The notes: generated from the sequence alone by a model not told the origin. DNA of 64,000 nt from Gemmobacter serpentinus (GCF_008973825.1 NZ_WCHR01000018.1:62001-126000); one strand, 5' to 3'; shown: positions 22,477 through 50,936, numbered from the stretch's first letter. Translations and numbers: made by a program.

Positions 22477-23451
22477 TCAAAGCGGTGGATCTGTGGGGGT
22501 TTCCGCCCCCCAGATCACCGCGCGTTCATGCCGCCGGATGACGTGTTTCAGGTTGTCGAAGGCCGCGATGATATGGCCCGCAAACCGTTCTGCCGCAGGC
22601 GCGCGGGCCATATTCACGCGCCGCAAAATCCCGAGCGACCTGTTGGGCTGCGGGATGTTGTAGGGCAGCACCGTGATGCGGTTTTCCTTGCGCTGCGCGA
22701 AAACCGTGGAATAGGGCAGCACCGCCAGCGCATCGGTTTCCACCAGCACATTCACCACGCTCATCAGTGACCCGCCCGAATAGCGGATGTTCAGATCCGA
22801 CATGCCGATGGACATCAGGATCATCTGCAAATCCGACATCAGTGGCGATCCGGGCAGCGGCGCGACCCATGGATAGGTGGTCAGATCCTGGGTTTCCAGC
22901 GGGCGCTTGCGCATCAGGGGATGGCCGGGGCGGCAGGCCACGATATTGCGGCCGGGCAGGATCTCGGTGAATTCGAAACCGGGGCCAAGATCCAGCACGC
23001 CAATCGGCACGATGCCCATATCGATCTGCGCGGCCTCAAGGGCTGCCGCCATTTCCGGCAGGTTCATATAGCTTTGCTGCACGGTGACGCCGGGTTCCTG
23101 ATTGAGAAATTCGCCAATCATCTGGCTGATCATCGCATCCATGAAAAACGGCACGCCCGCCACCCGCACCACGCCCTTGGTGCCGCGCACAAAGCCCTGC
23201 ACCGCGTCTGACGCCCGGCGCGAGGCCGCAATGATCATGCGCCCCTGCACCGCAAGTTGCAGCCCAAGGGGCGTGGCCTGCAAAGGGCGACGGCCCTTGA
23301 TGAACAGGGGCTCGCCCACCCGGTCTTCCAGCATGGCAAGCGAGCGCGAGACGGCGGGCTGGGTCAGCCCCAGCATCGCGGCCCCTTCGGAAACCCCGCC
23401 CGCATCCAGAACGGCGGCGAGCTGCATCAGATGGCGTTCATTCAGCTTCAT
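22477..23451 (-). CDS. LysR-family regulator, aromatic island copy 1
   Basis: A 324-residue LTTR with an N-terminal HTH (residues 6-64, LTQPAVSRSLAMLEDRVGEPLF in part) and a PBP-like effector domain. It is colinear with the second LysR at 43468-44418 across the whole length: FMDAMISQMIGEF against FMDGVVASMIAEF, and ALAVLPYSTVF against ALTVLPYSVVF. It is divergent from the intradiol dioxygenase at 23543 with a 91-bp gap, the classical LTTR arrangement, and probably activates that unit in response to a ring-cleavage intermediate. Its stop codon abuts that of the convergent dehydrogenase. Confidence 0.9.
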   Translation of the reverse strand: MKLNERHLMQLAAVLDAGGVSEGAAMLGLTQPAVSRSLAMLEDRVGEPLFIKGRRPLQATPLGLQLAVQGRMIIAASRRASDAVQGFVRGTKGVVRVAGVPFFMDAMISQMIGEFLNQEPGVTVQQSYMNLPEMAAALEAAQIDMGIVPIGVLDLGPGFEFTEILPGRNIVACRPGHPLMRKRPLETQDLTTYPWVAPLPGSPLMSDLQMILMSIGMSDLNIRYSGGSLMSVVNVLVETDALAVLPYSTVFAQRKENRITVLPYNIPQPNRSLGILRRVNMARAPAAERFAGHIIAAFDNLKHVIRRHERAVIWGAETPTDPPL

Positions 23452-23542
23452 AGCACTCTGTTATACCGCCCCTCGAACAACTCAAACAAAAAAGCAGGGC
23501 GCGGGGTAAACCTGTTCTTACGGGGATGGGAGGCCCCGGCGG

Positions 23543-24436
23543 ATGCAGCGCGAAACATCGGTTCTGCCTGTGGGCGAAAACCCCGCAGCAGAAAGCAGCA
23601 CACCCCAGAAAGGCGCCGCGTTTTCCGCGCGGCTGGCCGGCCTGCCGGTCACCCGGCTTGGGCAGGGGCTGGCGGCGCTGGTCGATGCGCTGGACGGGTT
23701 GGTGCGCGATCTGCGCCTGACACCCACCGAGTTCCGGCAGGTGCTGGATTACCTGACCGACGTGGGCCATGCGGCGGATGCAAGGCGGCAGGAATGGGTC
23801 TTGCTGGCCGATGCGCTTGGCCTGTCTGCCTTGGTCGAAGATCTGAATGGCAGGCGACCAGCGGGCTGCACCCCCAATACCGGGGCCGGGCCGTTCTACC
23901 GCGCCGATGCACCGCTGCGCGACAATGGCGCGACGATCAGCCTTGATGGTGTGGGCACGGTGTTGCAGGTGCGCGGACGCGTGCTGTCGCTGAACGGCGC
24001 GGCTTTGGCGGGGGCTTTGGTCGAGGTCTGGCAGGCCAACGGCCAGGGCAAATACGAAAATCAGGAACCCGACCTGCAACCCGAAAACAATCTGCGCGGG
24101 CGGTTGAAAACGGATGCGCAGGGGCGCTTTGCCTTCCGTTCCGTGATGCCGGGTGGCTATGCGCTGCCCTCTGACGGGCCGGTGGGGCAGCTGATGACCC
24201 GGCTGGGCCTGTGCCTTATCCGCCCCGCCCATATCCATTTCCGCGTCTCTGCCGCAGGGCATGAGCGGCTCACGACCCATATCTTCGACCGCGCCGATCC
24301 CGCCATCAATCGGGATGCGATCTTCGGGGTGAAACCCGAACTCTTGGCCGATTTCCGCGCGATGCCCCTCGACGGAGGTGTGATGGGCCGCGCGCTCGAC
24401 CTTGACCTTGTGCTTTGCCCGCTGCGGCAAGGCTGA
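23543..24436 (+). CDS. Intradiol ring-cleavage dioxygenase (hydroxyquinol/catechol 1,2-dioxygenase type)
   Basis: A 297-residue Fe(III) dioxygenase. The N-terminal helical dimerisation domain (residues 40-105) precedes the beta-sandwich. All four expected iron ligands are present: Tyr119 in GPFYR, Tyr206 in GGYALPSDGPVG, and His230/His232 in RPAHIHF. It inserts O2 between the two hydroxylated carbons of a catechol or hydroxyquinol, giving a muconate. The first ~30 residues are extra compared with the paralogue at 42285. Start 23543 follows GGGAGG. It is the first gene of a unit with the VOC dioxygenase and esterase. Confidence 0.9.
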   Translation: MQRETSVLPVGENPAAESSTPQKGAAFSARLAGLPVTRLGQGLAALVDALDGLVRDLRLTPTEFRQVLDYLTDVGHAADARRQEWVLLADALGLSALVEDLNGRRPAGCTPNTGAGPFYRADAPLRDNGATISLDGVGTVLQVRGRVLSLNGAALAGALVEVWQANGQGKYENQEPDLQPENNLRGRLKTDAQGRFAFRSVMPGGYALPSDGPVGQLMTRLGLCLIRPAHIHFRVSAAGHERLTTHIFDRADPAINRDAIFGVKPELLADFRAMPLDGGVMGRALDLDLVLCPLRQG

Positions 24437-24532: not shown

Positions 24533-25492
24533 ATGTCCACGATCAGCGGATACCACCACCTGACCATGTCCACGGACGGCGCGCAGGAAGATTTCGATTT
24601 CTACACCAAGACGCTTGGCCTGCATTCGGTGAAGCGGACCGTGCTGTTTGACGGCACAGTGCCAGTCTATCACCTGTATTACGGCTCACCCAATGGCGAT
24701 GCCTCGACCATCATCACCACCTTCCCCTTCAAGAAGCCCGGTGTTTACGGCCGTCGCGGCACCAACCAGTCGCGCACCATCATGCAGTCGATCCCGATGG
24801 GTGCCGCCGATTTCTGGGTGGACCGGCTGAATGCACGCGGCATCCCGGCCGAAAAGATCACCCGTTTCGGGGCGGATCGCGTGGCCTTCGCCCATCCCTG
24901 CGGCATCCCGCATGAGCTGGTGGAAAGCGACAGCGATAGCCGCACGCCGATCACCAATGACGCGCAAGGCATCGGGGCGGCCCATGGCATCAAGGGCATC
25001 TATGGCGGTCTGGTCGCCTGTTTCGACCGCACCGCGATGGATGATTTCATGACCATCGCGCTGCCGCTGACCAAAGAGGCCGACACCCATGAGGGCACCG
25101 TCTATCGCGTGCCGGACGCCAATGGTGTGATCCAGCGCGTCGAGGTCGTTGAGGACCGCACCAGCCCGCAAGGCACCTGGACGCTGTCGGGCGGCACCAT
25201 CCACCACCTTGCGCTGAACACCGGCGATGAAGAAAACCAGATGAAGCTGCGTGCCCATATCGAGGGCCTGGGCTTCACCGATATCTCGGAACAGAAGGAC
25301 CGCAACTATTTCAAGTCCTGCTATGTCCGTTCGCCTGGCGGCGCGCTGTTCGAACTGGCATGGACCACGCCGCAGGGCTGGGCCCGCGACGAGGAGCCGG
25401 GCGAGATCGGCAAGACCCTTGTCTTCCCGCCGTGGTTCAAGGATCGCGAGGCCGAGCTGCGCGAAGGTCTGGAACAGGCCGAGTTCGCCTGA
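24533..25492 (+). CDS. VOC-family ring-cleaving dioxygenase (MhqO-like)
   Basis: A 319-residue protein of two vicinal-oxygen-chelate modules. Putative metal ligands are His in GYHHLTMST near residue 8, His in TIHHLALNT near 223 and Glu in GALFELAW near 272. The size and N-terminus resemble the MhqO/LinE-type hydroquinone-cleaving dioxygenases, not the classical catechol 2,3-dioxygenases. It probably cleaves a hydroquinone or substituted dihydroxy ring. The ATG follows a perfect AAAGGAGGAGA. The next gene, an esterase, overlaps its stop (TGATG), and MhqO-MhqD-like pairs of this kind are known from quinone-responsive operons. Confidence 0.87.
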   Translation: MSTISGYHHLTMSTDGAQEDFDFYTKTLGLHSVKRTVLFDGTVPVYHLYYGSPNGDASTIITTFPFKKPGVYGRRGTNQSRTIMQSIPMGAADFWVDRLNARGIPAEKITRFGADRVAFAHPCGIPHELVESDSDSRTPITNDAQGIGAAHGIKGIYGGLVACFDRTAMDDFMTIALPLTKEADTHEGTVYRVPDANGVIQRVEVVEDRTSPQGTWTLSGGTIHHLALNTGDEENQMKLRAHIEGLGFTDISEQKDRNYFKSCYVRSPGGALFELAWTTPQGWARDEEPGEIGKTLVFPPWFKDREAELREGLEQAEFA

Positions 25493-26151
25493 TGACTGCG
25501 GTCGTTGCATCCGGGGCACTCGCATCGGGTGCGGTGCATCTGGCAGCGTCAAGGGCAAGGGCGGTCTGCGTCCTTGTCCATGGCCGCGGCCAATCACCCG
25601 AAGAGATGCAGTCCCATATTCTGGCGCGGCTGGCCGTGCAGGATGTGGCGTTCATCTTGCCGCGTGCGCCCCATTCCGGCGAAGCGGGCGGGGCCTGGTA
25701 TAATGCCAAGGCGGTCGATCCGCTGAGTGATGACACGATCGCGGCGCTTGCCACGGCACGCGACCATCTGGCGGCGGATGTGGCCTCGGCCCGGGCGCTC
25801 TATCCCCGCCTGCCGTTGGTGCTGGCAGGGTTCTCGCAAGGGGCGTGCCTGTCGCTGGAATATGCCTTTGCAGGGCTGCCCGCGCCTGAGGCATTGGTGG
25901 CCCTGACAGGCTGCCGTGTCGGCGCGTTGGCAGACCTGCGGCCAAGGGCGTTGCCGCCGGAATTGCCCGTCTGGCTGACCGGATCGGACAATGATCCGTG
26001 GATCCCGGTCACCGCCTTTGCCGAGGCCGCGCTGGAACTGGGACGCGGGCGCGCGCGCTTGCAGGCCGCGCTTTACCCCGGACGCGGGCACGAGGTCTCA
26101 GATGCCGAGATCGCGCTGCTGCAAGGCGTGCTGCAGGCCCCGCTTGGGTGA
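25492..26151 (+). CDS. Alpha/beta hydrolase, carboxylesterase/phospholipase type (MhqD-like)
   Basis: A 219-residue serine hydrolase with the oxyanion segment LVHGRGQSPEEM near residue 29, nucleophile GFSQGACLS near 116, Asp in TGSDNDPWIP near 164 and His in GRGHEVSD near 200. It belongs to the small carboxylesterase/phospholipase group. The start overlaps the dioxygenase stop by 1 bp, so the two work together; it may hydrolyse the dioxygenase product. A larger in-frame start at 25360 is rejected because it would read through the upstream gene. Confidence 0.87.
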   Translation: MTAVVASGALASGAVHLAASRARAVCVLVHGRGQSPEEMQSHILARLAVQDVAFILPRAPHSGEAGGAWYNAKAVDPLSDDTIAALATARDHLAADVASARALYPRLPLVLAGFSQGACLSLEYAFAGLPAPEALVALTGCRVGALADLRPRALPPELPVWLTGSDNDPWIPVTAFAEAALELGRGRARLQAALYPGRGHEVSDAEIALLQGVLQAPLG

Positions 26152-26193: not shown

Positions 26194-26300
26194 CTGCCCG
26201 ACCAAGATCCTAAACAAAAGCGGTCCGCCTGCGGACATGCTTGGCGCGGAGACGGCGCGGGCGGGACGGGTCGCGCCAGACGCTCATCAGGGAGGATGAC

Positions 26301-27575
26301 ATGATTACCAGACGCAGGTTCCTGCATACATCGGCGGCCACCGGCCTGACGCTTGCGGCCTCCGGCCTTGCTGCGCCAAGTCTTGCGCAGGGGGCAAAGA
26401 TCAAGCTGGGCTATGTTTCGCCACAGACCGGCCCGCTTGCGGGCTTTGCCGAAAGCGATGCCTGGAACATCCAGGCCTTTCTGGCCTCCGAACTTGGCCA
26501 GAATTTCGAGGTCGTGGTGAAGGACAGCCAGTCCAACCCGAACCGCGCGGCAGAGGTCGCAAAAGAACTGATCCTGAGCGATGGCGTCAATCTTATGCTG
26601 GCGGCCTCGACCCCGGAAAACACCAATCCGGTGGCGGGTGTGTGTGAGGGTGAGGGCGTGCCGGTCATCACCACGGTTGCGCCGTGGCAGCCTTGGTTCA
26701 TCGGCCAGCAGGGCAATCCGCGCGATCCCGCAAGCTGGAAACCCTTCGACTATGCCTTCCACTATTTCTGGGGCATGGAGGATGTGATCCGCGTCTATAC
26801 CGCGATGTGGGATCAGCTGGCGACCGACAAGGCGGTGGGCGGCCTCTTTCCCAATGATGCCGATGGCAATGCCTGGGGCGACAGTGACAATGGCCTGCGT
26901 CCGGGCCTTGCCGAAAAGGGCTATGCCCTGACCAATCCGGGCAGCTTCCAGAACCTGTCGGATGATTTCTCGGCCCAGATCAACGCGTTCAAATCGGCCA
27001 ATACCGATATCATCACCGGCGTGCTGATCCCGCCGGATTTCGCCACCTTCTGGGCGCAGCTGCGCCAGCAGGGGCTGAAGCCCAAGGCGGTCACGGTGGC
27101 CAAGGCGCTTTTGTTCCCGCAATCGGTGGAGACGCTGGGGGCGGCAGGGCACAACCTTTCCTCCGAAGTCTGGTGGTCGCCCTCGCACCCGTTCGCATCG
27201 ACGCTGACCGGACAAAGCTCGGCCGATCTGGCCGCCGACTTCACGGCAAAGACCGGACGGCCCTGGACGCAGCCCATCGGCTTTGTTCATTCGCTGTTTG
27301 AGGTTGCGGCCAATGTCATGGGCCGGGTGGATGACCCGAGCGATGGCGATGCCGTGGCCGAGGCTGTGGCCGCGACCGATATGACCACCGTGGTCGGCAA
27401 GGTCGCTTGGAACGGCGCGGGCGTGCCGGACTTTGCCGCAAAGAACGTCTGCAAGACGCCGCTGACCGGCGGGCAGTGGCGCATGAAAGAAGGGGGCGGT
27501 TACGATCTGGTGATCGTCGAAAACGGCGGGGCGACCGAGATCCCCACCGGCGGGCAGATGGAAGCCCTGGCCTGA
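26301..27575 (+). CDS. HAAT-type ABC substrate-binding protein 1
   Basis: A 424-residue branched-chain-amino-acid-type binding protein with a Tat signal (MITRRRFLHTSAATGLTLAA, cleavage near SLAQG). The mature start IKLGYVSPQTGPLAGFAESD and the block DSQSNPNRAAEVAKELIL are typical of the family. It is homologous along its length to the second binding protein at 30468. Neighbouring genes point to an aromatic or aryl-acid ligand and not an amino acid. Start 26301 follows GGGAGGATGAC. No permease lies next to it; its partner is probably one of the two Liv-type sets downstream. Confidence 0.9.
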   Translation: MITRRRFLHTSAATGLTLAASGLAAPSLAQGAKIKLGYVSPQTGPLAGFAESDAWNIQAFLASELGQNFEVVVKDSQSNPNRAAEVAKELILSDGVNLMLAASTPENTNPVAGVCEGEGVPVITTVAPWQPWFIGQQGNPRDPASWKPFDYAFHYFWGMEDVIRVYTAMWDQLATDKAVGGLFPNDADGNAWGDSDNGLRPGLAEKGYALTNPGSFQNLSDDFSAQINAFKSANTDIITGVLIPPDFATFWAQLRQQGLKPKAVTVAKALLFPQSVETLGAAGHNLSSEVWWSPSHPFASTLTGQSSADLAADFTAKTGRPWTQPIGFVHSLFEVAANVMGRVDDPSDGDAVAEAVAATDMTTVVGKVAWNGAGVPDFAAKNVCKTPLTGGQWRMKEGGGYDLVIVENGGATEIPTGGQMEALA

Positions 27576-27585: not shown

Positions 27586-27608
27586 GGGCGGCGTGTTCAG
27601 CGCCGCCC
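27586..27608. terminator. Hairpin between convergent genes
   Basis: GGGCGGCG (27586-27593) pairs with CGCCGCCC (27601-27608). It overlaps the last codons of the regulator gene and ends the binding-protein message on the plus strand (TTGT follows). Confidence 0.6.
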
Positions 27609-29225
27609 TTGTGACTCGGTTCCGTCGCGGCCGGACTGTTCCCGATAGGCCAGTTGCGGGCGGGTGATGCCCAGCAGGCGCGCGGCAGCGGACAGATTGC
27701 CGCCGGTTTGCGCCAGTGCCATGGCGCGGATCCGCGCCTCATGCGCGGGCAGGGAAAACCCGCCCGCTGCCAGTTTTGCAGCAATCCAGCCCTCATCCGC
27801 ATCTTGTCGGGCCGGGCAAATGCGCGCCAGCGCGCTGTCCAGATCCGCAGGCGTCAGCTCATTGCCGGATTGCGCGGCAAGGGTCAGGGCGGTCAGCACC
27901 CCATCCAGTTGATCCAGATCGGCGATCTTGCCATGCAACTCTGGCAGGTCAGCGGGTTCCGCAAGGCCCAGTTGCGCCGCGATCTGGGCCATGCGTTCCT
28001 TTGCCAAAGCCTGCAGATCGTCGCGCTGTGGCAGGCCCGGCAGTTCCAGCGCCAAGGGCGCCAGCCGCGCCCAAAGCGCAGGTGCCAGATGCCCGGCCAG
28101 CCATGCCAATGGCCGGGCAGAGACCAGCACCAGACGTGGCAGCGGATCAGGATCGCCAGGCAGCAAGGCTGCCCGCAGACGCGCCGCCAGTTCAGCCTGT
28201 GTCGCCGGGGGCAGATCCTCGACCCCTTCGATCAGCACTGACTCGGGCTTTGGACGTTTGCGCCCCGGCTGCGCGCGGGCCATCGCCTCGCGCAAGCTTT
28301 CTGGATTGCAACTTGCGGCCACCAGACGCAGCGCCTCATCGCTGTTGCGGGCCAGAAGATGATTTGCCGCCGCCTCTTGCCCGCAACTGCCCGCGCCTGC
28401 GATCAGGCAGGGCAGCGGCAGCCGGGCGGCCAGATCCAGCGCCTCCAGCACCGGGGCCAGCAGGGCGGTTGCTGCCCCGCGCGACCGGCTGATCCGGGCA
28501 GGTTTGCGCAGCCCCTCAGCGTCGGAGCTTTCGCCGGGGCTTGCGGGCAGGATGCGGCTGCGGAACAGCACGACATCGGGGTCATCCTCGCCCCAGCCTT
28601 CGGCCAGCTTGCCAATCACCCGGCAGGCGCGATGACCCTGCGCCGCGCAGGCGGTTTCCTTATAGACCACCAGCGCGCCGAAGAAATGGCTGGCGTAGCC
28701 CGAGGCATAACCAAGCTGCTGCCAGCAGACCGGGCGCGCCGCCTGTCCGGGCATCGGTGCCCCGCGCATGTCGCCTTCAGCCTCGCTGGCCTCAAGCGAA
28801 TTGTGCCACAGGAATTCCGCCGAAAACCGCCCGCGTGCAAAGTCGAAATCGTTATGCACGGTCTCGACCCGCACGATGCCGCTGAACATATGCAGCCGCG
28901 TGCCTGCGGTGAAGGCATCGCCCCGGTCCAGCATCGGCCAGCTGGAGGCGACGAAAGCCGCATCATTGCGCCCCATGCGAAAGCCGCGCCGCAGCAGGAA
29001 AATGCGCGCCTCATCCTCGCCTATCTGGCGCACAAGTTCACGCCGCAGGATATGCTCGGCCTCGGCCAGTTGCAGCGTCACCCGCGCACCATTCAGGTGC
29101 AGCGTGCCGCTGGCGGGGTCAAATTCCAGCCCGGCCAGAAATTCGCGCAAGGTGGGCCGCCCGCCCCGATCCAACAGGGCGGCGGAGTCGGAATTGCCCC
29201 GGATCGGCAGCAGCGGACGCTTCAT
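27597..29225 (-). CDS. XylR/DmpR-type aromatic-sensing regulator with degenerate AAA+ domain
   Basis: A 542-residue protein. Residues 20-110 match the XylR_N sensor, and about 130-215 the V4R domain with the Cys pair TACAAQGHRACRV that binds zinc in phenol sensors. Residues ~250-440 follow the outline of a sigma-54 AAA+ domain, but the Walker A is eroded (AGAGSCGQEA in place of GETGVGKE) and Walker B reads LIEGVED. The GAFTGA region is missing. A Fis-type HTH (GGNLSAAARLLGITRPQLAYR in part) ends the protein. It can probably sense a phenol and bind DNA but not remodel sigma-54 polymerase. It is divergent from the SDR gene at 29586. Confidence 0.88.
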   Translation of the reverse strand: MKRPLLPIRGNSDSAALLDRGGRPTLREFLAGLEFDPASGTLHLNGARVTLQLAEAEHILRRELVRQIGEDEARIFLLRRGFRMGRNDAAFVASSWPMLDRGDAFTAGTRLHMFSGIVRVETVHNDFDFARGRFSAEFLWHNSLEASEAEGDMRGAPMPGQAARPVCWQQLGYASGYASHFFGALVVYKETACAAQGHRACRVIGKLAEGWGEDDPDVVLFRSRILPASPGESSDAEGLRKPARISRSRGAATALLAPVLEALDLAARLPLPCLIAGAGSCGQEAAANHLLARNSDEALRLVAASCNPESLREAMARAQPGRKRPKPESVLIEGVEDLPPATQAELAARLRAALLPGDPDPLPRLVLVSARPLAWLAGHLAPALWARLAPLALELPGLPQRDDLQALAKERMAQIAAQLGLAEPADLPELHGKIADLDQLDGVLTALTLAAQSGNELTPADLDSALARICPARQDADEGWIAAKLAAGGFSLPAHEARIRAMALAQTGGNLSAAARLLGITRPQLAYREQSGRDGTESQGRR

Positions 29226-29252
29226 GATGTGACCTATCAGGATTTCATGTAA

Positions 29253-29279
29253 TGATGATCTGATTTTATCAATACATCA
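29253..29279. promoter_or_regulatory. Interrupted dyad, candidate upstream activator site
   Basis: Outer arms TGATG/CATCA and inner TGATTTTATCA share one centre at 29266. It lies 28-54 bp upstream of the XylR-like gene and about 330 bp before the SDR. Its position suits autoregulation or an upstream activator site. Confidence 0.45.
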
Positions 29280-29352
29280 ATGTCGCGCGACCAATCTGTT
29301 TCCTGTTTTCGGCGTCCTTGCGAAAAACCAAATAAATTCAGCGCCTTGCCTA

Positions 29353-29369
29353 TATAGCGTTCCGCTATA
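29353..29369. promoter_or_regulatory. Palindrome TATAGCG-TTC-CGCTATA
   Basis: A perfect 7-bp dyad in the AT-rich divergent region. It could be an operator; no family is assigned. Confidence 0.4.
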
Positions 29370-29395
29370 AAAATTCCTGTTTTCCGCATTTGACT

Positions 29396-29410
29396 TGGCA
29401 GGTCATCCGC
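29396..29410 (+). promoter_or_regulatory. Weak sigma-54-like promoter
   Basis: TGGCAGGTCATCCGC has the invariant GG and GC with correct 10-bp spacing, but the -12 element is CCGC where TTGC is expected. It reads toward the SDR gene, 176 bp upstream of its start. Confidence 0.25.
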
Positions 29411-30395: not shown

Positions 30396-30467
30396 CCATT
30401 CCACCCCCCGACCCGCTCAGGAGGAGGGCGGGTCGGGGGCACCGTGCCAACCCCGAGGGAGGAAGAC

Positions 30468-31763: not shown

Positions 31764-31786
31764 TCATGCTGGGCGGGGGGGCCGGG

Positions 31787-43467: not shown

Positions 43468-44418
43468 TTACCCGCGCCGCCGGGTGATCTGCTGGTCATG
43501 GTCCATCCGTCCCTGAAGCCGCGCGCATTCGGCCTGCAGAAATCCGGTCAGCTGGCGCACAGCGGGGGGCGCCTGACGGCCTGTTACGCTCAGGATCCCA
43601 AGCTGACGTTCGGCATGGTCGATCTTGAGTGGCAGCGCCTCCAGCGGCATGGAGCGGCGCGACAGGAACACCACCGAATAGGGCAGCACGGTCAGCGCAT
43701 CCGACCCGCCCAGCACCGACTGGATCGAGGCCAGCGTCCCGCCCGAGAAGTTCACCCTGAAATCCTCTTGCCCGATGCTTTTCAGCGCCCGTTGCAGGTC
43801 GCGGTAGAGCGGGCTGTTGGCAGGCGGCGCGATCCAGGCATAGGGCGCGATATCGTTCAGCGTGATCGCCCTGGTCCGGGTCAGCGGATGGCCTGCCCGG
43901 CAGGCAATGACATTGTTGCCCGACAGAAGCGGGATGAAATCCAGATCGGGCGGCACCTGACCCGGATGCAACGGAAGGATCGCCACATCCAGCCCGCCAT
44001 TGCGCAAACCCGCCTCCAATTGCTCGAAGTAACCATAGGACTGGTCGATCTGCACATCGGCATGGCGCGACTGGAATTCGGCAATCATCGAGGCCACGAC
44101 GCCATCCATGAAGATCGGCGACCCACCGACGCGCAGCCGCCCCGCCAGACCCTGACGAAAGCGCTGGACCAGCAGGCTGGCTTCCTTGTTCGCGGCATGG
44201 ATGCGGGCACCGAGGCGCGCAAGGCTTGCGCCCAGTTCGGTCGGGCGCAGCGGGCGACGGCCCGGCTCGAACAGCGGCAGGCCGATACGTTCTTCCAGAA
44301 GCGCCATGGAGCGCGAGACCGAGGGCTGCGATTTGCCAAGCGCCTCAGCCCCTTCGGTGAGGCCGCCGCGTTCCACGATCGCGGCGAGGATCTCAAGATG
44401 TTCGCTGTCCAGTTTCAT
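43468..44418 (-). CDS. LysR-family regulator, aromatic island copy 2
   Basis: A 316-residue LTTR. HTH at residues 6-62 (SQPSVSRSMALLEERIGLPLF in part) and a PBP-like effector domain. It is a full-length homologue of the LysR at 22477. It is divergent from maleylacetate reductase with an 88-bp gap, so it should control that gene and perhaps the set-2 transporter and dioxygenase. A 13-bp palindrome, TGCCTTAAAGGCA (44418-44430), overlaps its start codon and suggests autoregulation. The 3' end is 6 bp from the convergent tautomerase-like gene. Confidence 0.9.
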   Translation of the reverse strand: MKLDSEHLEILAAIVERGGLTEGAEALGKSQPSVSRSMALLEERIGLPLFEPGRRPLRPTELGASLARLGARIHAANKEASLLVQRFRQGLAGRLRVGGSPIFMDGVVASMIAEFQSRHADVQIDQSYGYFEQLEAGLRNGGLDVAILPLHPGQVPPDLDFIPLLSGNNVIACRAGHPLTRTRAITLNDIAPYAWIAPPANSPLYRDLQRALKSIGQEDFRVNFSGGTLASIQSVLGGSDALTVLPYSVVFLSRRSMPLEALPLKIDHAERQLGILSVTGRQAPPAVRQLTGFLQAECARLQGRMDHDQQITRRRG

Positions 44419-44456
44419 GCCTTAAAGGCATATAATGACTCGATCTTCCGATCAAT
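44418..44456. promoter_or_regulatory. Divergent LysR/maleylacetate reductase promoter elements
   Basis: Contains the palindrome TGCCTTAAAGGCA (44418-44430), a perfect TATAAT hexamer at 44431-44436 and CGATCTTCCGATCAAT at 44441-44456, the near copy of the motif at 38857. Which strand the TATAAT serves cannot be decided. Confidence 0.45.
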
Positions 44457-44506
44457 ATTTATATTGCCCGGGGCTAGATTTCACTTCGATACAGGGGAGG
44501 AACCCG

Positions 44507-45580
44507 ATGTCCTTTTTCCGCGATGAGTTCACCGCGCGCAGCGCGTCTGTCCGCGTGCGCTTTGGTGCCGGGATCCGCAAATCGCTGGCGGAAGAGATCG
44601 ATGCACTTGACGCAAAGCGCGCGCTGATCCTGACCACGCCGCATCAGGCGGCGATGGCGGATGAGTTTGCGGCGCTGTGCGGGCCGCGCGCGGTCGGGCG
44701 CTATACCAAGGCCGCGATGCACACGCCGGTCGACGTGTCGGAAGAGGCGACCGCGCTTGCGCGGGAATTGCAGGCCGATGTGCTGATCTCGGTCGGGGGC
44801 GGCTCGACCACGGGTCTGGGCAAGGCCATCGCGCTACGCACCGATCTGCCGCAGATCGTGGTGCCCACCACCTATGCCGGGTCCGAGGCTACGGGCATTC
44901 TGGGCCAGACTGAAAACGGGGTGAAGACCACGCTGACCAGTGCGGCGGTCCAGCCCGAGGTGATCCTGTATGACGCCGAACTGGTGACCAGCCTGCCAGT
45001 CGCGATGACCGTGACCTCTGCCCTCAATGCCATGGCCCATGCGGCCGAGGGGCTTTATGCCCGCGACCGCTCGCCCCTGTCATCCCTGATGGCGGTGGAA
45101 GGTCTTCGGGCCTTTCGCGACAGTCTGCCCAAGGTGATGGCGCAGCCCGAGGGCGTGTCGGGGCGGGGCGAGACGCTTTATGGCGCCTGGCTTTGCGGCA
45201 CGGTGCTGGGGCAGGTCGGCATGGCGTTGCATCACAAGCTTTGCCACACGCTGGGGGGCAGTTTCGATCTGCCCCATGCCGAAACCCATGCGGTGATCCT
45301 GCCTCATGCCATCGCCTTTAACGCCGCCGCCGTGCCGGATCTGCTTGCGCCGGTGACTGATCTGTTCGGCCATGGCAATGCGGGCCTTGGCCTGTGGCAT
45401 TTTGGCAAGGATGCGGGCGCGCCGATGGCGCTGCGCGATCTGGGCCTGAGCGAAACCGATCTGGACCGCGCCGCCGATCTGGCCTCGGCCAACCCATATT
45501 GGAACCCGCGGCCTGTCACGCGCGAGGGCATCCGCGCGTTGCTGCAAGCGGCATGGGCCGGGCAAGCCCCCGCAATCTGA
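44507..45580 (+). CDS. Maleylacetate reductase
   Basis: A 357-residue iron-type alcohol-dehydrogenase-family enzyme. NAD-binding loop SVGGGSTTGLGKA near residue 92, YAGSEATGILGQTE near 123, and the metal His region ALHHKLCHTLGGSFDLPHAETHA near 236-258 (visible as HHKLCHTLGG). These are maleylacetate-reductase landmarks. It reduces maleylacetate to 3-oxoadipate with NAD(P)H. Start 44507 follows AGGGGAGGAAC; an upstream in-frame ATG at 44435 lies in the promoter. It links the hydroxyquinol cleavage step to PcaIJF. Confidence 0.93.
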   Translation: MSFFRDEFTARSASVRVRFGAGIRKSLAEEIDALDAKRALILTTPHQAAMADEFAALCGPRAVGRYTKAAMHTPVDVSEEATALARELQADVLISVGGGSTTGLGKAIALRTDLPQIVVPTTYAGSEATGILGQTENGVKTTLTSAAVQPEVILYDAELVTSLPVAMTVTSALNAMAHAAEGLYARDRSPLSSLMAVEGLRAFRDSLPKVMAQPEGVSGRGETLYGAWLCGTVLGQVGMALHHKLCHTLGGSFDLPHAETHAVILPHAIAFNAAAVPDLLAPVTDLFGHGNAGLGLWHFGKDAGAPMALRDLGLSETDLDRAADLASANPYWNPRPVTREGIRALLQAAWAGQAPAI

Positions 45581-45632
45581 CATCCGGGCCTTGGGCGGGA
45601 GGCCCGGCCATCGACCAAAGGGAGAGGACCCC

Positions 45633-47405
45633 ATGGCAGACAAGACAAGCGCAGACATCAGCACCGATGTCCTGATCATCGGCACCGGGCCTGCGGGCTC
45701 GGCCACGGGGGCGCTGCTGTCCAGCTACGGCATCGCCAATATGGTGGTGAACCGCTATCGCTGGCTGGCCAATACGCCGCGCGCGCATATCACCAACCAG
45801 CGCACGATGGAGGTGCTGCGCGATCTGGGCCGCGAGGTCGAGGACGAGGCCTATATGTTCGCGGCGCATCAGGATCTGATGGGCGAGAACGTGTTCTGCG
45901 AAAGCCTTGCCGGCGAGGAAATCGGCCGGATGAAGGCATGGGGCAATCATCCGCTGTCGCGCGCCGAACATCTGATGTCCTCGCCCACGCGGATGAACGA
46001 TCTGCCGCAGACCTATATGGAGCCCCTGCTGTTCAAGACCGCCTGCCAGCGCGGCACGCAGGCGCGCATGTCCACCGAATATCTGCGCCACGAACAGGAC
46101 GCGACGGGGGTGACGACCACCTGTCTGGATCGCCTGACGGGCAAGGAAATCACCATCCGCTCCAAATACCTTGTCGGCGCGGATGGCGCGAAATCGCTGG
46201 TGGCCGAACATGCGGGCCTGCCCTTTGAGGGCAAGATGGGTGTTGGCGGCAGCATGAACATCCTGTTTCGTGCGGACCTCACGAAATATGTCGCCCACCG
46301 CCCTTCGGTTCTCTACTGGGTCATGCAGCCGGGGGCCGATGTCGGTGGCATCGGCATGGGGCTGGTGCGGATGGTGCGGCCCTGGAACGAATGGCTGATC
46401 GTCTGGGGCTATGACATCAACGGGCCGGAACCCGAGGTCACGCCGGAATTCGCCACCGGCGTTGCGCGTCAGCTGATCGGCGACCCGGATCTGGAGATCG
46501 AACTGCTGGCCGCCAATGTCTGGACGGTGAACAACTATTACGCCACCCGCACCGCCGAGGGCCGGGTGTTCTGCATGGGCGATGCGATCCACCGCCACCC
46601 GCCGTCGAACGGGCTTGGCTCCAACACCTCGATCCAGGATGCGTTCAACCTGGCCTGGAAGCTGGCCATGGTGCTGAAGGGGCAGGCGGGCACGCGGCTG
46701 CTGGACAGCTATGACACCGAACGCGCGCCGATCGCCAAGCAGATCGTGACCCGCGCCAACCAGTCCATCGCCGAGACCGGGCCGATCTTTGCCGCGCTTG
46801 GTATGGCCGAAGGTGTAAGCCCCGAACAGATGCAGAAGAACCTGCAGGCCCGGACCGAAGGCACGCCCGAGGCCGAGGCGCAGCGCGCCGCGATCCGCAA
46901 GGCCATTGCCTTCAAGAAATACGAATTCGACGCCCATGGGGTGGAGATGAACCAGCGTTACCGCTCCGGCGCGGTGGTGACCGACGGCCAGATCGAGCCG
47001 GCGTTCCAGCTGGATGCCGATCTTCATGCGCAGCCCACCACATGGCCGGGCGCGCGTCTGCCGCATGTCTGGCTCTATCGTCATGACAACGGGGCCGAGG
47101 TCTCGACACTGGATCTGTGCGGGCATGGCCGTTTCACCCTTTTGACGGGCTTGGGCGGCGAGGCATGGGCGCAGGCGGCGCAGGCGGTCGCGGCAGAGCT
47201 GGGCCTTGATCTGGTGGTGCATGTCATCGGGCCGCGCCAGCCGCATGTCGATCACAGCGGCGAATGGGCGCGCCTGTCGGAGATCCGCGACGATGGTTGC
47301 CTTTTGGTGCGCCCCGATCACCATGTCGCATGGCGCGCCACCGGCATGAGCGCGGCACCCGAGGCCGATCTGGCCCGCGTATTGCGCGCGGTTCTGGATC
47401 GCTGA
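45633..47405 (+). CDS. FAD-dependent aromatic hydroxylase, TfdB/phenol 2-monooxygenase type
   Basis: A 590-residue class A flavoprotein monooxygenase. N-terminal FAD motif VLIIGTGPAGSATG near residue 13, the DG motif YLVGADGAKSLV near 190 and the GD motif FCMGDAIHRHPPSNGLGSN near 315 are all intact. A C-terminal thioredoxin-like domain (about 490-585) is typical of phenol and 2,4-dichlorophenol hydroxylases. It puts a hydroxyl ortho to a phenolic OH with NADPH and O2. Start 45633 follows AAAGGGAGAGGA. Adjacent to maleylacetate reductase, it is a second candidate for producing hydroxyquinol. Confidence 0.9.
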   Translation: MADKTSADISTDVLIIGTGPAGSATGALLSSYGIANMVVNRYRWLANTPRAHITNQRTMEVLRDLGREVEDEAYMFAAHQDLMGENVFCESLAGEEIGRMKAWGNHPLSRAEHLMSSPTRMNDLPQTYMEPLLFKTACQRGTQARMSTEYLRHEQDATGVTTTCLDRLTGKEITIRSKYLVGADGAKSLVAEHAGLPFEGKMGVGGSMNILFRADLTKYVAHRPSVLYWVMQPGADVGGIGMGLVRMVRPWNEWLIVWGYDINGPEPEVTPEFATGVARQLIGDPDLEIELLAANVWTVNNYYATRTAEGRVFCMGDAIHRHPPSNGLGSNTSIQDAFNLAWKLAMVLKGQAGTRLLDSYDTERAPIAKQIVTRANQSIAETGPIFAALGMAEGVSPEQMQKNLQARTEGTPEAEAQRAAIRKAIAFKKYEFDAHGVEMNQRYRSGAVVTDGQIEPAFQLDADLHAQPTTWPGARLPHVWLYRHDNGAEVSTLDLCGHGRFTLLTGLGGEAWAQAAQAVAAELGLDLVVHVIGPRQPHVDHSGEWARLSEIRDDGCLLVRPDHHVAWRATGMSAAPEADLARVLRAVLDR

Positions 47406-47412
47406 ACGTCAG

Positions 47413-47438
47413 TTAAGGGGGGCTTTGCTCTCCCTTAT
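47413..47438. terminator. Terminator between convergent hydroxylase and IclR genes
   Basis: TAAGGG (47414-47419) pairs with CCCTTA (47432-47437) around a loop with further G-C and G-T pairs. It lies between the two stop codons and just overlaps the IclR end. Confidence 0.5.
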
Positions 47439-48208
47439 CGCAGCATCTTGCGCAAACTGTCCTGCACGCCTTGCAGGGCGGGCAGGAAGCGCGCGCGCAT
47501 CTCGTCCGGTGTGGCGCGGGCGGCGGAAACCCCGATATTCATCGCGGCCACCACCCGTCCGCGCGCATCCTGCACCGGCACGGCGATAGAGCGCAGGCCG
47601 GTCTCGATCTCCTGGTCGTTCAGCGCGTGTCCCTCCGCGCGGATGCGGGTGAGTGCTGCCATCACCGCCTCGGGCTCGGTCAGGGTGAGTGGTGTGCGCG
47701 CGGCCAGCGGGCCGGGTCCAAGCAGGGCGCGGGCAGCAGCCTCTGGCAATGCCGCCAACAATACGCGGCCCATGCTGGTGCAATGCGCCGGCAGGCGCGA
47801 TCCGGGCATCAGCGCAATCGACATCACCTTTTGCTGTGCCGCACGGGCGACATAGACGATCTCGGCCCCATCAAGGATCGACACCGACGAACTTTCGCCG
47901 ATCTGATCCGACAGCGCATCAAGGAAGGGTTGCACGATCTGCGGCAGCGGCATGGTGGCCAGACAGGCGGTGCCAAGCCGCAGCACGCGCGGCGTCAGCG
48001 TAAAGAACTTGCCGTCCCAATCGGCATAGCCCTGATGCGCCAGCGTCAGCAGGCAGCGCCGCGCCGTGGCACGATCGAGCCCCGAGGCGGCGGCGACCTC
48101 GGCAATCGACTGGCGCGGGCGTTCGGCGGAGAAGGTCTCGATCACGGCAAGACCTTTGGACAGGCCGCTCATCATGTCGCGTTCAGCTATGGCCAAGTCT
48201 GCCCTCAT
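47435..48208 (-). CDS. IclR-family regulator, PcaR/PobR type
   Basis: A 257-residue IclR protein. Winged HTH at residues 12-75 (SGLSKGLAVIETFSAERPRQ, then AEVAAASGLDRATARRCLLT) and an effector domain with VYVARAAQQKVMSIALMPGSR in part near 130. GRVLLAALPE near 155 is a PcaR/PcaU landmark. It should control the divergent pcaIJF genes in response to 3-oxoadipate or a related acid. Start 48208 has no strong ribosome binding site; a Met-Met pair at 48175 is an alternative. A long antisense frame continuing upstream over pcaI and pcaJ is not real. Confidence 0.88.
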   Translation of the reverse strand: MRADLAIAERDMMSGLSKGLAVIETFSAERPRQSIAEVAAASGLDRATARRCLLTLAHQGYADWDGKFFTLTPRVLRLGTACLATMPLPQIVQPFLDALSDQIGESSSVSILDGAEIVYVARAAQQKVMSIALMPGSRLPAHCTSMGRVLLAALPEAAARALLGPGPLAARTPLTLTEPEAVMAALTRIRAEGHALNDQEIETGLRSIAVPVQDARGRVVAAMNIGVSAARATPDEMRARFLPALQGVQDSLRKMLR

Positions 48209-48212
48209 CGTT

Positions 48213-48245
48213 GTGCGATATGTAAACAAATATGCTATATCGCAC
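48213..48245. promoter_or_regulatory. Inverted repeat GTGCGATAT-N15-ATATCGCAC, candidate IclR/PcaR operator
   Basis: Perfect 9-bp arms in the 120-bp gap between the IclR gene and pcaI. The half-site with CGAT resembles the PcaR-type recognition sequence as I remember it. The IclR start lies 5 bp away, so binding would block its own transcription. Confidence 0.55.
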
Positions 48246-48328
48246 GAGATGGATTTACCGCAAGCCCGGCCGGCCCTATCCCTGAAACCGGATCGGGGCA
48301 GGGCCCCCGGACGAGAAGAGGACTTCAC

Positions 48329-49060
48329 ATGGACAAGACAGTCGCAGACCTTGCCACGGCGGTGGCAGGGATCGAGGACGGCATGACCGTGATGATCGGC
48401 GGCTTTGGCGGGGCAGGTGCGCCCATCGAGCTGATCCACGCGCTGATCGACCGCTTTCGCGCCACCGGCCACCCGAAGGGGCTGATCGTGGTGAACAACA
48501 ATGCGGGCAATGGCCATATCGGTCTGGCCGCGTTGATCGAGGCAGGGATGGTGGCAAAGCTGATCTGCTCTTTCCCGCGCTCGGCCGATCCGGTGGTGTT
48601 CACCGAAATGTATCTGGCGGGCAAGATCGACCTGGAGCTGGTGCCGCAGGGCACGCTGGCCGAACGGATCCGCGCGGGCGGGGCCGGGATTCCGGCCTTC
48701 TATACGCCGACTTCCTATGGCACCGATCTGGCCAAGGGCAAGCATGTCGAAGAATTTGACGGGCGGCCCTATGTGCGCGAACGCTGGCTGAAGGCCGATT
48801 ACGCGCTGGTCAAGGCCGAAAGCGCCGATCCCTATGGCAACCTGACCTATCGGGCGGCGGCGCGGAACTTCAACCCGCTGATGTGCATGGCCGCGCGCGT
48901 GGCTGTGGTGCAGGCCAGCCGCATTGTCGCGGCGGGGGATCTGGACCCCGAGGGCATCGTGACCCCCGGCATCTTTGTGCAGAAGGTGGTGCAGGTCGCC
49001 AATCCGCATCAGGAAGAAGACCTGAACCGCGCCCATGCCACCTATCCGCTGGAGGCCTGA
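48329..49060 (+). CDS. pcaI: 3-oxoadipate CoA-transferase subunit A
   Basis: A 243-residue class-I CoA transferase alpha subunit. MIGGFGGAGAPIELIHAL near residue 21, VVNNNAGNGHIGLAALIEAG near 50 and the region TLAERIRAGGAGIPAFYTPT near 108 are family landmarks. With PcaJ it transfers CoA from succinyl-CoA to 3-oxoadipate. Start 48329 follows AGAAGAGGAC; longer in-frame starts would cross the IclR gene. First gene of the pcaIJF unit. Confidence 0.93.
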   Translation: MDKTVADLATAVAGIEDGMTVMIGGFGGAGAPIELIHALIDRFRATGHPKGLIVVNNNAGNGHIGLAALIEAGMVAKLICSFPRSADPVVFTEMYLAGKIDLELVPQGTLAERIRAGGAGIPAFYTPTSYGTDLAKGKHVEEFDGRPYVRERWLKADYALVKAESADPYGNLTYRAAARNFNPLMCMAARVAVVQASRIVAAGDLDPEGIVTPGIFVQKVVQVANPHQEEDLNRAHATYPLEA

Positions 49061-49063: not shown

Positions 49064-49732
49064 ATGCAGAAACTTTCCAACAACCAGATCGCGTGGCGCG
49101 CGGCGCAAGACATTGCCGATGGTGCCTATGTGAACCTTGGTATCGGCTTTCCCGAAAAGGTCGCGCAGTTCCAGCCGCCGGGCCGTGAGGCGATCTTTCA
49201 CACCGAAAATGGCATCCTGAACTTTGGCGAGGCCCCGCCTGCCGGTCAGGAAGACTGGGATGTGATCAATGCGGGCAAGAAGGCCGTGACGATCAAGCCC
49301 GGCACCGCCTTCTTCCACCATGCCGACAGCTTTGCCATGGTGCGGGGCGGTCATCTGGATGTGGCGATTCTGGGCGCCTATGAGGTGGCCGAGACCGGCG
49401 ATCTGGCGAACTGGTCGACCGGCCCGAAGGGCGTGCCTGCCGTGGGGGGCGCGATGGATCTGGTGCATGGGGCCAAGCGTGTGGCGGTCATCACCGATCA
49501 CGTCACCAAGGATGGCAAGCCCAAACTGCTGAAACGGTGCACCCTGCCGCTGACCGGCGTGGGTTGCGTGACGCGGGTCTATACCAGCCTTGCAGTGATT
49601 GATATCGAGGGCGGGCGGTTTGTTCTGCGCGAGAAACTGCCTTCGATTTCTGTCGAGGATCTGCAATCCGTGACCGGGGCCGAACTTCTGGTGCCCGGAC
49701 CTGTCGCCGATTTGATCGTGCCCGAGGTTTGA
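49064..49732 (+). CDS. pcaJ: 3-oxoadipate CoA-transferase subunit B
   Basis: A 222-residue CoA-transferase beta subunit. NLGIGFPEKVAQF near residue 25 and the active-site Glu region HTENGILNFGEAP near 45 are intact, followed by GGHLDVAILGAYEVAETGD near 100 and MDLVHGAKRVAVITDHVTKDG near 130 (in part). It lies 3 bp after pcaI and 1 bp before pcaF. Confidence 0.94.
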   Translation: MQKLSNNQIAWRAAQDIADGAYVNLGIGFPEKVAQFQPPGREAIFHTENGILNFGEAPPAGQEDWDVINAGKKAVTIKPGTAFFHHADSFAMVRGGHLDVAILGAYEVAETGDLANWSTGPKGVPAVGGAMDLVHGAKRVAVITDHVTKDGKPKLLKRCTLPLTGVGCVTRVYTSLAVIDIEGGRFVLREKLPSISVEDLQSVTGAELLVPGPVADLIVPEV

Positions 49733-49733
49733 C

Positions 49734-50936
49734 ATGCAAGACGCCTATATCTGTGACTATATCCGCACCCCCATCGGCCGCTTCGGCGGCAGCCTGTCTT
49801 CGGTGCGTGCCGATGATCTGGGGGCTGTGCCGCTGCGTGCCTTGATGGCGCGTCATGCTGGCCTTGATTGGGATGCGGTGGATGACGTGATCTTCGGCTG
49901 CGCCAATCAGGCGGGCGAGGACAATCGCAACGTTGCCCGCATGTCGCTGTTGCTGGCGGGGCTGCCGACCACGGTCGGGGGCACCACGATCAACCGGCTG
50001 TGCGGGTCGGGGATGGATGCGGTGATCGCGAGCGCCCGCGCCATCAAGGCGGGCGAGGCCGATCTGATGATCGCGGGCGGTGTGGAGTCGATGTCGCGCG
50101 CGCCCTTCGTCATGCCCAAGGCCGAAAGTGCCTTCAGCCGTGCTGCGGAAATTCACGACACCACGATTGGCTGGCGTTTCATCAACCCGTTGATGAAGGC
50201 ACAATACGGCGTCGACAGTATGCCCGAGACCGGCGAGAATGTGGCGGAAGATTTCGCCATCTCGCGCGAGGATCAGGATGCTTTTGCGTGGCGCTCGCAG
50301 GCCAAGGCGGCTGAAGCGCAGGCCAATGGGCGCCTGGCGCGCGAAATCACCCCGGTCGTGATCCCGCAGCGCAAGGGCGATCCGGTCGAGGTGGGGCGCG
50401 ACGAGCATCCCCGCGCCACCACCATGGAGGCGCTGGCCAAACTTGGCACCCCGTTCCGCAAGGGCGGCAGCGTGACGGCGGGCAATGCCTCGGGCGTGAA
50501 TGACGGGGCTGCGGCGCTGATCATTGCCAGTGCCGAAGGCGCGCGCAAACATGGGCTGACCCCGATTGCCCGCATCCTTGGCGGGGCCGTCGCAGGCGTT
50601 GCACCGCGCATCATGGGGATCGGGCCTGCGCCTGCCTCGGAAAAGCTCATGGCGCGGCTGGGGCTGACGCAAGCCGATTTCGACGTGATCGAGTTGAACG
50701 AGGCTTTCGCGAGCCAGGGCCTTGCCACCCTGCGCCGTCTTGGCATCGCCGATGATGATGCAAGGGTGAACCCCAATGGCGGTGCGATCGCGCTGGGCCA
50801 TCCCCTTGGTATGTCGGGCGCGCGTATCACCGGCACTGCGGCGCTGGAATTGCAGCTGAATGGTGGCCGGCGCAGCTTGTCCACCATGTGTATTGGCGTG
50901 GGGCAGGGGATCGCCATCGCGCTGGAGCGGGTCTGA
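49734..50936 (+). CDS. pcaF: 3-oxoadipyl-CoA thiolase
   Basis: A 400-residue thiolase. Nucleophilic Cys in NRLCGSGMDAV near residue 88, His in GGAIALGHPLGMSGAR near 355 and Cys in STMCIGVGQG near 385 are all present. The start MQDAYICDYIRTPIGRFGG is the PcaF/PaaJ form. It splits 3-oxoadipyl-CoA into succinyl-CoA and acetyl-CoA, ending the catabolic route. A strong terminator follows. Confidence 0.95.
   Translation: MQDAYICDYIRTPIGRFGGSLSSVRADDLGAVPLRALMARHAGLDWDAVDDVIFGCANQAGEDNRNVARMSLLLAGLPTTVGGTTINRLCGSGMDAVIASARAIKAGEADLMIAGGVESMSRAPFVMPKAESAFSRAAEIHDTTIGWRFINPLMKAQYGVDSMPETGENVAEDFAISREDQDAFAWRSQAKAAEAQANGRLAREITPVVIPQRKGDPVEVGRDEHPRATTMEALAKLGTPFRKGGSVTAGNASGVNDGAAALIIASAEGARKHGLTPIARILGGAVAGVAPRIMGIGPAPASEKLMARLGLTQADFDVIELNEAFASQGLATLRRLGIADDDARVNPNGGAIALGHPLGMSGARITGTAALELQLNGGRRSLSTMCIGVGQGIAIALERV

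Follow-up and report, generated by a model that had tools for sequence, protein, structure and literature searches.

A conserved alphaproteobacterial gene island of Gemmobacter serpentinus that probably imports phenol-type compounds and opens their rings

Several described gene clusters convert phenolic rings to maleylacetate or related products. The gra cluster of Rhizobium MTP-10005 and the tsd cluster of Rhodococcus combine a resorcinol-type hydroxylase, a hydroxyquinol 1,2-dioxygenase and a maleylacetate reductase. When a hydroquinone without a leaving group is cleaved, a semialdehyde dehydrogenase is needed afterwards to reach maleylacetate. In the mnp cluster of Cupriavidus, the dioxygenase MnpC acts with the amidase MnpE and the maleylacetate reductase MnpF, whereby the C1-C2 cut and the amidase step are given as the authors' proposals in the available part of that report (PMC5604080). 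This system is a precedent for a cut next to a ring substituent, followed by hydrolysis of the product. For the MhqO/MhqD cluster of Paenibacillus, the accessible portion of the description names a MarR-type regulator and no maleylacetate reductase (PMC12673573). Here, we analysed a 64,000-nt stretch of Gemmobacter serpentinus DNA (the window, to which all positions refer) and describe an island at 22,477-50,936 that probably imports phenol-type compounds and opens their rings for food. Instead of the one hydroxyquinol route proposed in an earlier note on this DNA, we favour on balance two branches, a hydroquinone-type and a hydroxyquinol-type one, which meet at maleylacetate and share the maleylacetate reductase; the individual substrates are less certain.

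Gene families were assigned with Pfam and NCBIfam, and every gene listed in the earlier note was confirmed. Two LysR regulators, two intradiol dioxygenases and two complete HAAT importers, each with one binding protein, two ATPases and two permeases, stand together with a maleylacetate reductase and PcaIJF. These families support the note's reading of a single catabolic island, in which import, sensing and cleavage are each present twice and the products lead into maleylacetate and 3-oxoadipate. Its decision to assign no substrate also holds. In contrast, this composition is not unique to the genome at hand: a gene-cluster comparison found the core in 15 of 15 contexts, in two orders. These contexts, the window included, were taken from extended regions and annotated plasmids of Rhodobacterales and Hyphomicrobiales with identity thresholds set per gene, and an absent gene is one absent from the stretch read, not from the whole genome. 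The SDR and SBP2 of Xinfangfangia and the SDR of Rhizobium NZLR1 lie outside the stretches compared, and their absence there is uninformative. Common to all 15 contexts are an FAD aromatic hydroxylase (45,591-47,405; genes lie on the plus strand unless stated otherwise), the hydroxyquinol 1,2-dioxygenase HQDO (42,285-43,121), the oxygenase subunit of a two-component flavin monooxygenase (36,948-38,168) and an alpha/beta hydrolase (36,137-36,925). The maleylacetate reductase (44,435-45,580), an MhqD-type serine hydrolase/carboxylesterase (25,489-26,151), the periplasmic binding protein SBP1 of importer 1 (26,241-27,575; Peripla_BP_6) and the flavin reductase partner of the monooxygenase (38,217-38,783; Flavin_Reduct) each occur in 14. 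If the MAG23 copies on a separate stretch are counted, a ring-cleaving VOC dioxygenase (24,533-25,492) is found in 14 contexts and the intradiol dioxygenase IDO1 with the regulator LysR1 in 12 (13 and 11 otherwise), while LysR2 (43,468-44,418, minus strand; Pfam) is present in 11 at an identity of at least 65%. Two relatives were left out of the 15, namely G377, whose island is broken up among contigs, and the LN-1 plasmid of Agrobacterium with a reduced set (LysR1-IDO1-VOC-MhqD-maleylacetate reductase-hydrolase-monooxygenase-flavin reductase), beside which no FAD hydroxylase or HQDO was found.

The genes are arranged differently in most Rhodobacterales copies than in those of Hyphomicrobiales, while the set itself is retained. 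SBP1, for instance, lies 11 kb from its permeases in the window and directly before LivGFHM1 in Mesorhizobium, Kaistia and Rhizobium; therefore, this orphan binding protein was assigned to importer 1 (LivG1, LivF1, LivH1 and LivM1; 38,945-42,264; Pfam). A scan for IDO1 using one genome per species gave 28 loci. The VOC gene adjoins IDO1 in all 21 loci with at least 60% IDO1 identity and MhqD does so in 20 of them, the remaining contig ending there, while no VOC match was found at the 7 loci below 60%. This indicates that the association of VOC with IDO1 is more than chance. Within 40 relatives, the best IDO1 match has 45% identity, and the monooxygenase (E <=1e-120) was detected in 8 of 394 genomes of the window's family, nearly one genome per genus, showing a scattered island. 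The monooxygenase is 67-94% identical in the 14 other islands, and the ratio of nonsynonymous to synonymous substitutions (dN/dS) is 0.03-0.17 in the 8 genes tested besides IDO1, MhqD and the XylR-like regulator described below. Combined, the island is a conserved unit common to many alphaproteobacteria. No characterisation of this gene set was found among the titles and abstracts listed from the open-licence PMC literature, although a description may exist.

The VOC enzyme was previously regarded as part of an MhqO-like branch. However, it scores 217 bits against PcpA (PDB 4huz) and 145 bits against MhqO, and in a tree of 17 sequences it groups with PcpA, LinE, an MnpC-like gene and actinobacterial relatives, these 14 rows being split from 3 MhqO-type rows at 100/99. 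On both counts, the MhqO assignment was rejected. The tool flagged long branches in this tree, and the MnpC-like sequence is a gene of strain HN-2 chosen by its neighbours. Within the larger group, PcpA, LinE and the RK1 enzyme form a sub-clade of their own without the window's VOC, which lies nearest to the actinobacterial rows. The two-domain enzyme keeps the columns HH, HH and E, which we take to be the iron site, in 17/17 tree rows and in 23/23 island rows (17 distinct). A role of this His-His-Glu set as iron ligands is described for MhqO in the part of the article at hand (PMC12673573), and the MhqO rows keep the columns as well, so that this feature does not separate them from the PcpA/LinE type. 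VOC is 84-97% identical in most islands and 70% in Rhizobium NZLR1, which places it with the best-conserved proteins encoded there. These data suggest that VOC is a type I hydroquinone 1,2-dioxygenase-like enzyme of the PcpA/LinE/MnpC group, for which C1-C2 cleavage is predicted.

The gene following VOC, with a 4-base overlap as called, encodes the MhqD-type hydrolase (Abhydrolase_2), which carries a GFSQG nucleophile motif and matches carboxylesterase 4h0c (E 1e-16). An MhqD-type hydrolase also stands beside VOC in Actinomycetota, and the genes after VOC include a hydrolase and a maleylacetate reductase in Pseudarthrobacter and Cupriavidus RK1. The maleylacetate reductase of the window (Fe-ADH) is 49% identical to the one annotated in the RK1 cluster. 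No aldehyde dehydrogenase was identified among the island genes given a family, nor is one annotated in the Pseudarthrobacter VOC stretch. Since VOC is accompanied by a serine hydrolase and a maleylacetate reductase with no aldehyde dehydrogenase assigned, hydrolase-coupled cleavage of a substituted hydroquinone is suggested beside the hydroxyquinol branch. By analogy with MnpC/MnpE, a carboxylesterase-type hydrolase would point to an ester as the cleavage product and hence to an O-alkyl (methoxy) hydroquinone as the possible VOC substrate, which we regard as a lead, not a result. In this respect, a hydroquinone dioxygenase not placed relative to the VOC clade was reported to take 2-methoxyhydroquinone at 59% of the hydroquinone rate, according to the available part of that study (PMC3222310). 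Other plasmids carry related arrangements. Pseudarthrobacter chlorophenolicus A6 plasmid pACHL02 (10285-18361 of the stretch read) has a compact cluster of FAD monooxygenase, VOC, phospholipase, YceI, maleylacetate reductase, thiolase and CoA transferase. On two Rhodococcus plasmids, VOC and a hydrolase lie near a P450, a PDR/VanB reductase, a lactonase-like gene and a maleylacetate reductase, in one case with a formaldehyde dehydrogenase nearby.

For the hydroxyquinol branch, the best PDB match of HQDO (Dioxygenase_C/N) is 6-chlorohydroxyquinol 1,2-dioxygenase 8r2x with 463 bits, as compared with 218 bits for IDO1 (23,543-24,436; Dioxygenase_C/N), a hydroxyquinol-type enzyme, against the same protein. 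Among the five best PDB hits of either enzyme, three bear the name (6-chloro)hydroxyquinol dioxygenase, one is PnpC and one is called simply an intradiol dioxygenase. The iron ligands are presumed to be Tyr, Tyr, His and His; these candidates are kept in 27/27 HQDO rows and 26/27 IDO1 rows (21 distinct), and on this basis the idea that IDO1 is a dead enzyme was rejected. The deviating row is an IDO1-like protein of Rhizobium ruizarguesonis with Gln for the last candidate His, which is possibly inactive. In the intradiol tree (6 of 20 inner branches open, long branches flagged), the two enzymes fall into separate groups, indicating no recent duplication. IDO1 evolves at a dN/dS of 0.21-0.37, about 2-6 times that of the flanking LysR1 and VOC; MhqD (0.17-0.29) is likewise fast. 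Furthermore, in three islands (Martelella, Roseicitreum and G268) the stretches read contain neither IDO1 nor LysR1. Due to this fast evolution and loss, IDO1 looks accessory. LysR1 (22,477-23,451, minus strand; HTH_1 and LysR_substrate) is divergent from IDO1 and occurs in the same islands. A candidate LysR1 operator, ATAGCACTCTGTTAT (23,450-23,464), is a T-N11-A palindrome across the LysR1 start codon at one end of the intergenic region (23,452-23,542). In 13 of the 14 regions between LysR1 and IDO1, at least 9 of its 12 arm positions are kept at the same place across the start of LysR1, and an operator function is inferred. Four further intradiol-family matches exist in the genome outside the window.

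The second subject concerns an XylR-type regulator (27,597-29,225, minus strand), here called XylR-like, with XylR_N, V4R and Fis HTH domains in the same order as in XylR, DmpR and MobR. It was earlier described as an eroded XylR sensor. On the contrary, the sensor is the better-kept part: identities to four island relatives amount to 75-78% in XylR_N, 71-78% in V4R and 66-83% in the Fis HTH, as against 42-45% in the middle, where the AAA+ machinery has been lost. In all 11 members, the aligned positions lack the Walker A Lys, the Walker B Asp-Glu pair, the ESELFG/GAFTGA segment and FRADL; for Walker B, G377 keeps the Asp and G273 has Glu-Glu. The three canonical controls (pWW0 XylR, Acinetobacter MobR and a Polymorphobacter homologue) all have Walker A and B, and GAFTGA is present in two and GAYTGA in the third. 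Pfam returned a weak Sigma54_activ_2 match of 28.9 bits. GAFTGA mutants mostly cannot activate, as stated in the available part of a review (PMC7175178). No -24/-12 element was found in the 11 XylR-like-SDR intergenic regions with up to 2 mismatches and GG/GC kept (in the stand-alone six described below, within only the 230 bp next to the regulator gene). A broad scan of the whole window for this element gave 123 matches versus 95.5 expected, a number reached by 0 of 100 shuffles, but these were spread out, with none in 29,226-29,417, and nothing was drawn from them. By script, 8 of 11 members carry a TTGAC hexamer at a distance of 145-166 bases from the XylR-like start, and the remaining three have it in the alignment. 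In the window it reads TTGACT (29,390-29,395, plus strand), a sigma70-like candidate -35 hexamer ahead of the SDR gene inside the conserved TTCCGCATTTGAC stretch of the aligned intergenic regions. A tentative operator is an imperfect inverted repeat at 29,244-29,280 (arms 12, gap 13); such a repeat occurs near the regulator in 4 of 5 island members and is exact in G273.

The regulator is transcribed leftwards, away from the genes for SDR, SBP2-LivGFHM2, ZnADH, hydrolase, monooxygenase and flavin reductase. The SDR oxidoreductase (29,418-30,395; adh_short_C2) probably starts near 29,580, about 160 bp downstream of the longest open reading frame start, as family matches begin at residues 58-69 and the Martelella protein has 272 residues. 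Importer 2 (SBP2, LivG2, LivF2, LivH2 and LivM2; 30,444-35,116; Pfam) and a Zn-dependent alcohol dehydrogenase (ZnADH; 35,113-36,123; ADH_N, ADH_zinc_N) follow. At E 1e-40, the XylR-like protein was detected in 10 of 394 family genomes, five at 60-100% and five at 41-43% identity. In the latter five and on a Pseudosulfitobacter plasmid, it forms a stand-alone module with a cupin and, divergently, the same SDR-HAAT2-ZnADH block. The cupin is present in all six modules, five being 87-94% identical to that of Pseudosulfitobacter, and has 2,4'-dihydroxyacetophenone dioxygenase as a relative (E 3e-19); a search of the island contexts gave no copy of it. This combination hints at an aryl-alkyl carbinol or ketone, and the stand-alone module may possibly serve aryl-ketone catabolism. 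A GMC oxidoreductase, which belongs to the island in 7 of 15 contexts and not in the window, fits an alcohol in the upstream substrate. On a plasmid of Rhizobium sp. RCAM05350, an island with many fragmented genes, possibly due to sequencing errors, has a broken XylR-type gene near SBP2 that is annotated with a sigma54-interacting domain.

Based on gene content, the following scheme is proposed for the activities, their order, the substrates and the regulation. In the hydroxyquinol branch, importer 1 would take up a resorcinol-like phenol, the FAD hydroxylase would add a hydroxyl group to give hydroxyquinol, HQDO would open the ring, and the maleylacetate reductase would yield 3-oxoadipate. 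PcaIJ and PcaF would then deliver succinyl-CoA and acetyl-CoA. In the hydroquinone branch, importer 2 would bring in an aryl-alkyl alcohol or ketone sensed by the XylR-like regulator, SDR and ZnADH would oxidise the side chain, and the two-component monooxygenase with the alpha/beta hydrolase would remove it, giving a substituted, most likely O-methylated, hydroquinone. VOC would cut this ring next to the substituent and MhqD would hydrolyse the resulting ester to maleylacetate, with no need for an aldehyde dehydrogenase. IDO1 may serve as a dispensable accessory that acts on a substituted hydroxyquinol. The XylR-like regulator is predicted to act without sigma54, whereby ligand binding would change how tightly it holds an operator at a promoter of sigma70 type. 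A more far-reaching joint reading takes the XylR-like subfamily as ligand-switched DNA-binding regulators at sigma70 promoters that have shed the sigma54 ATPase, and the island as a natural pathway for non-halogenated substrates, with a PcpA-type dioxygenase and an esterase taking O-alkylated (lignin-type) hydroquinones directly to maleylacetate. The hydrolase would then fit the substituent on the ring: for Cl none or spontaneous loss, for NH2 an amidase and for OCH3 an esterase. This combined proposal is tentative, and we consider it rather doubtful as a whole.

Several observations weigh against the proposed scheme. Methylhydroquinone is cut away from its substituent, on the unsubstituted side, in the available part of the hydroquinone dioxygenase study (PMC3222310). 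VOC-hydrolase pairs also occur with halogenated substrates (lin, RK1), and the hydrolase pairs with MhqO relatives in Sinorhizobium and Halococcus; therefore, the pair alone is no proof of a methoxy substrate. The monooxygenase scores far below the NCBIfam cut-offs compared, which makes the reaction proposed for it uncertain. PcaIJF lies inside the island in 4 of 15 contexts, as does the XylR-like gene. The inverted repeat of the window is weak, with such a repeat arising in 15 of 300 shuffles, and none was seen at the corresponding site of the six stand-alone members. Finally, no gene is assigned to 47,406-48,322, a gap of about 900 bases that separates PcaI from the FAD hydroxylase.

A different reading would make the whole island one unbranched route for a bicyclic phenol from plants or lignin (flavonoid-, isoflavone- or biphenyl-like), in which an HbpA-like FAD hydroxylase and an HsaAB-like pair hydroxylate the two rings, VOC makes an extradiol cut, and a C-C hydrolase frees the second ring, which is finished via hydroxyquinol. 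The FAD hydroxylase is indeed closest to 2-hydroxybiphenyl 3-monooxygenase (4cy6; 627 bits over residues 23-594, full-length), as compared with 491 bits for 2,4-dichlorophenol 6-monooxygenase. The oxygenase subunit (HsaA/HpaH-C2 class, acyl-CoA dehydrogenase fold) is similar to HsaA (101 bits against a model cut-off of 450; 116 bits to Rv3094c), and the alpha/beta hydrolase (esterase or C-C hydrolase type; Abhydrolase_1, GFSMG) has weak matches to meta-cleavage hydrolases as well as to esterases. Flavonoid clusters (fde/ifc) use an FAD hydroxylase, a glyoxalase-family dioxygenase and, in ifc, cupins, according to the available part of their description (PMC11069340). Compared by description, the isoflavone (ifc) and naringenin (fde) clusters differ in their parts from the island and are retained solely within this alternative. 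VOC, however, groups with single-ring hydroquinone dioxygenases, no hydratase/aldolase for 2-hydroxypentadienoate is found among the assigned genes, and the Roseicitreum stretch has the enzymes of the hydroxyquinol branch without VOC and MhqD. This makes a bicyclic substrate unlikely. Recent assembly as a chlorophenol or xenobiotic pathway, as in pcp, lin or RK1, appears very improbable: although the solved structures nearest to HQDO and VOC belong to 6-chlorohydroxyquinol and 2,6-dichlorohydroquinone dioxygenases, the assigned genes include no LinD/PcpC-type dehalogenase, no transposase was seen among genes given a family, and the low dN/dS values of the 8 genes come from diverged orthologues in Mesorhizobium, Kaistia and Paracoccus.

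As for the regulator, the XylR-like gene could also be decaying without a role. Its patchy presence in the islands is in line with this, as is its dN/dS, which is about 2-4 times that of the flanking SBP1 and SDR. Furthermore, Cereibacter changlensis keeps only a remnant, suggesting that the gene is dispensable there, and an in-frame TGA is recorded within the match of the relative G377, though the extracted frame has none. Nevertheless, dN/dS is still 0.29-0.35 against three full-length relatives, which reflects purifying selection, the sensor and HTH are far better conserved than the middle, and the gene stands divergently beside the same block in six further contexts. A mere pseudogene was not favoured in view of this domain conservation and dN/dS, and we regard decay as quite unlikely. 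Overall, two branches meeting at maleylacetate, with a regulator working without AAA+ machinery, remain our preferred reading.

The lower pathway is encoded by PcaI, 3-oxoadipate CoA-transferase A (48,323-49,060; TIGR02429, 343 bits), which is the 3' part of a longer open reading frame with a start at about 48,323, by the CoA-transferase B PcaJ (49,064-49,732; TIGR02428, 300 bits) and by the 3-oxoadipyl-CoA thiolase PcaF (49,734-50,936; TIGR02430, 691 bits, above cut-off). A second PcaF is present elsewhere in the genome. Directly after HQDO lies a gene for a 110-residue protein (43,129-43,461) that was absent from the earlier note. It is found in 11 of 15 islands, has no Pfam family at cut-off, and begins with MPN in all 11. 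In the tautomerase superfamily, the proline exposed after removal of Met is the catalytic N-terminal residue, and we guess that this tautomerase-like candidate acts on a ring-opened product. The flanks look unrelated to the island. On the left are a glycerate-kinase-like gene, a Peripla_BP_5 binding protein and, at the island edge, a 2-hydroxyacid-dehydrogenase-like gene (21,097-22,476), a 61% relative of which adjoins the FAD hydroxylase at the opposite end of the MAG23 island. On the right, besides a DegT aminotransferase, is an AcnB-type aconitase of 929 residues (51,390-54,179; TIGR00117 362 bits against a cut-off of 1287, but over PRK09238), which is absent from the 14 other island contexts.

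If the scheme is correct, an island of about two dozen genes in Paracoccus, Cereibacter, Mesorhizobium, Kaistia, Martelella and others would acquire a function, namely the conversion of (methoxy)hydroquinones and resorcinols to tricarboxylic acid cycle intermediates. It would also imply bacterial ring opening of methoxylated lignin hydroquinones without prior O-demethylation, and the pairing of a dioxygenase with a hydrolase suited to the leaving group would become testable. The XylR-like regulator would then illustrate how a sigma54 activator survives loss of its ATPase as another kind of regulator, and might serve as a simple aromatic biosensor.

In comparison with known systems, the mnp cluster resembles the island in its single-subunit hydroquinone-type dioxygenase, hydrolase, maleylacetate reductase and LysR regulator, and the window's VOC has 40% identity to the HN-2 gene that stands for MnpC. 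It differs in having an amidase instead of a carboxylesterase-type hydrolase and an adjoining nitroreductase, and the stretch read shows neither HAAT importers nor an intradiol gene. The pcp and lin systems (PcpA, LinE) and Cupriavidus basilensis RK1 share the VOC group and a LysR regulator, lin and RK1 also the alpha/beta hydrolase, and RK1 the maleylacetate reductase. However, their substrates are halogenated, no HAAT importers or HQDO occur in the stretches read, and the window's VOC lies outside their sub-clade. The MhqO/MhqD pairs of Bacillus and Paenibacillus likewise place a serine hydrolase after a ring-cleaving VOC enzyme, but the window's VOC stands apart from the MhqO rows in the tree. 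The gra and tsd clusters match the hydroxyquinol branch in their enzyme types; unlike the window, they are not known to have a PcpA-type dioxygenase, second intradiol enzyme or pair of HAAT importers. The family of 2,4'-dihydroxyacetophenone dioxygenase is represented by the cupin of the stand-alone module, whereas in the islands the hydrolase and monooxygenase follow ZnADH instead. The sigma54 activators XylR, DmpR and MobR have the XylR_N, V4R and Fis HTH domains of the XylR-like regulator, whose 11 members have all lost the AAA+ motifs.

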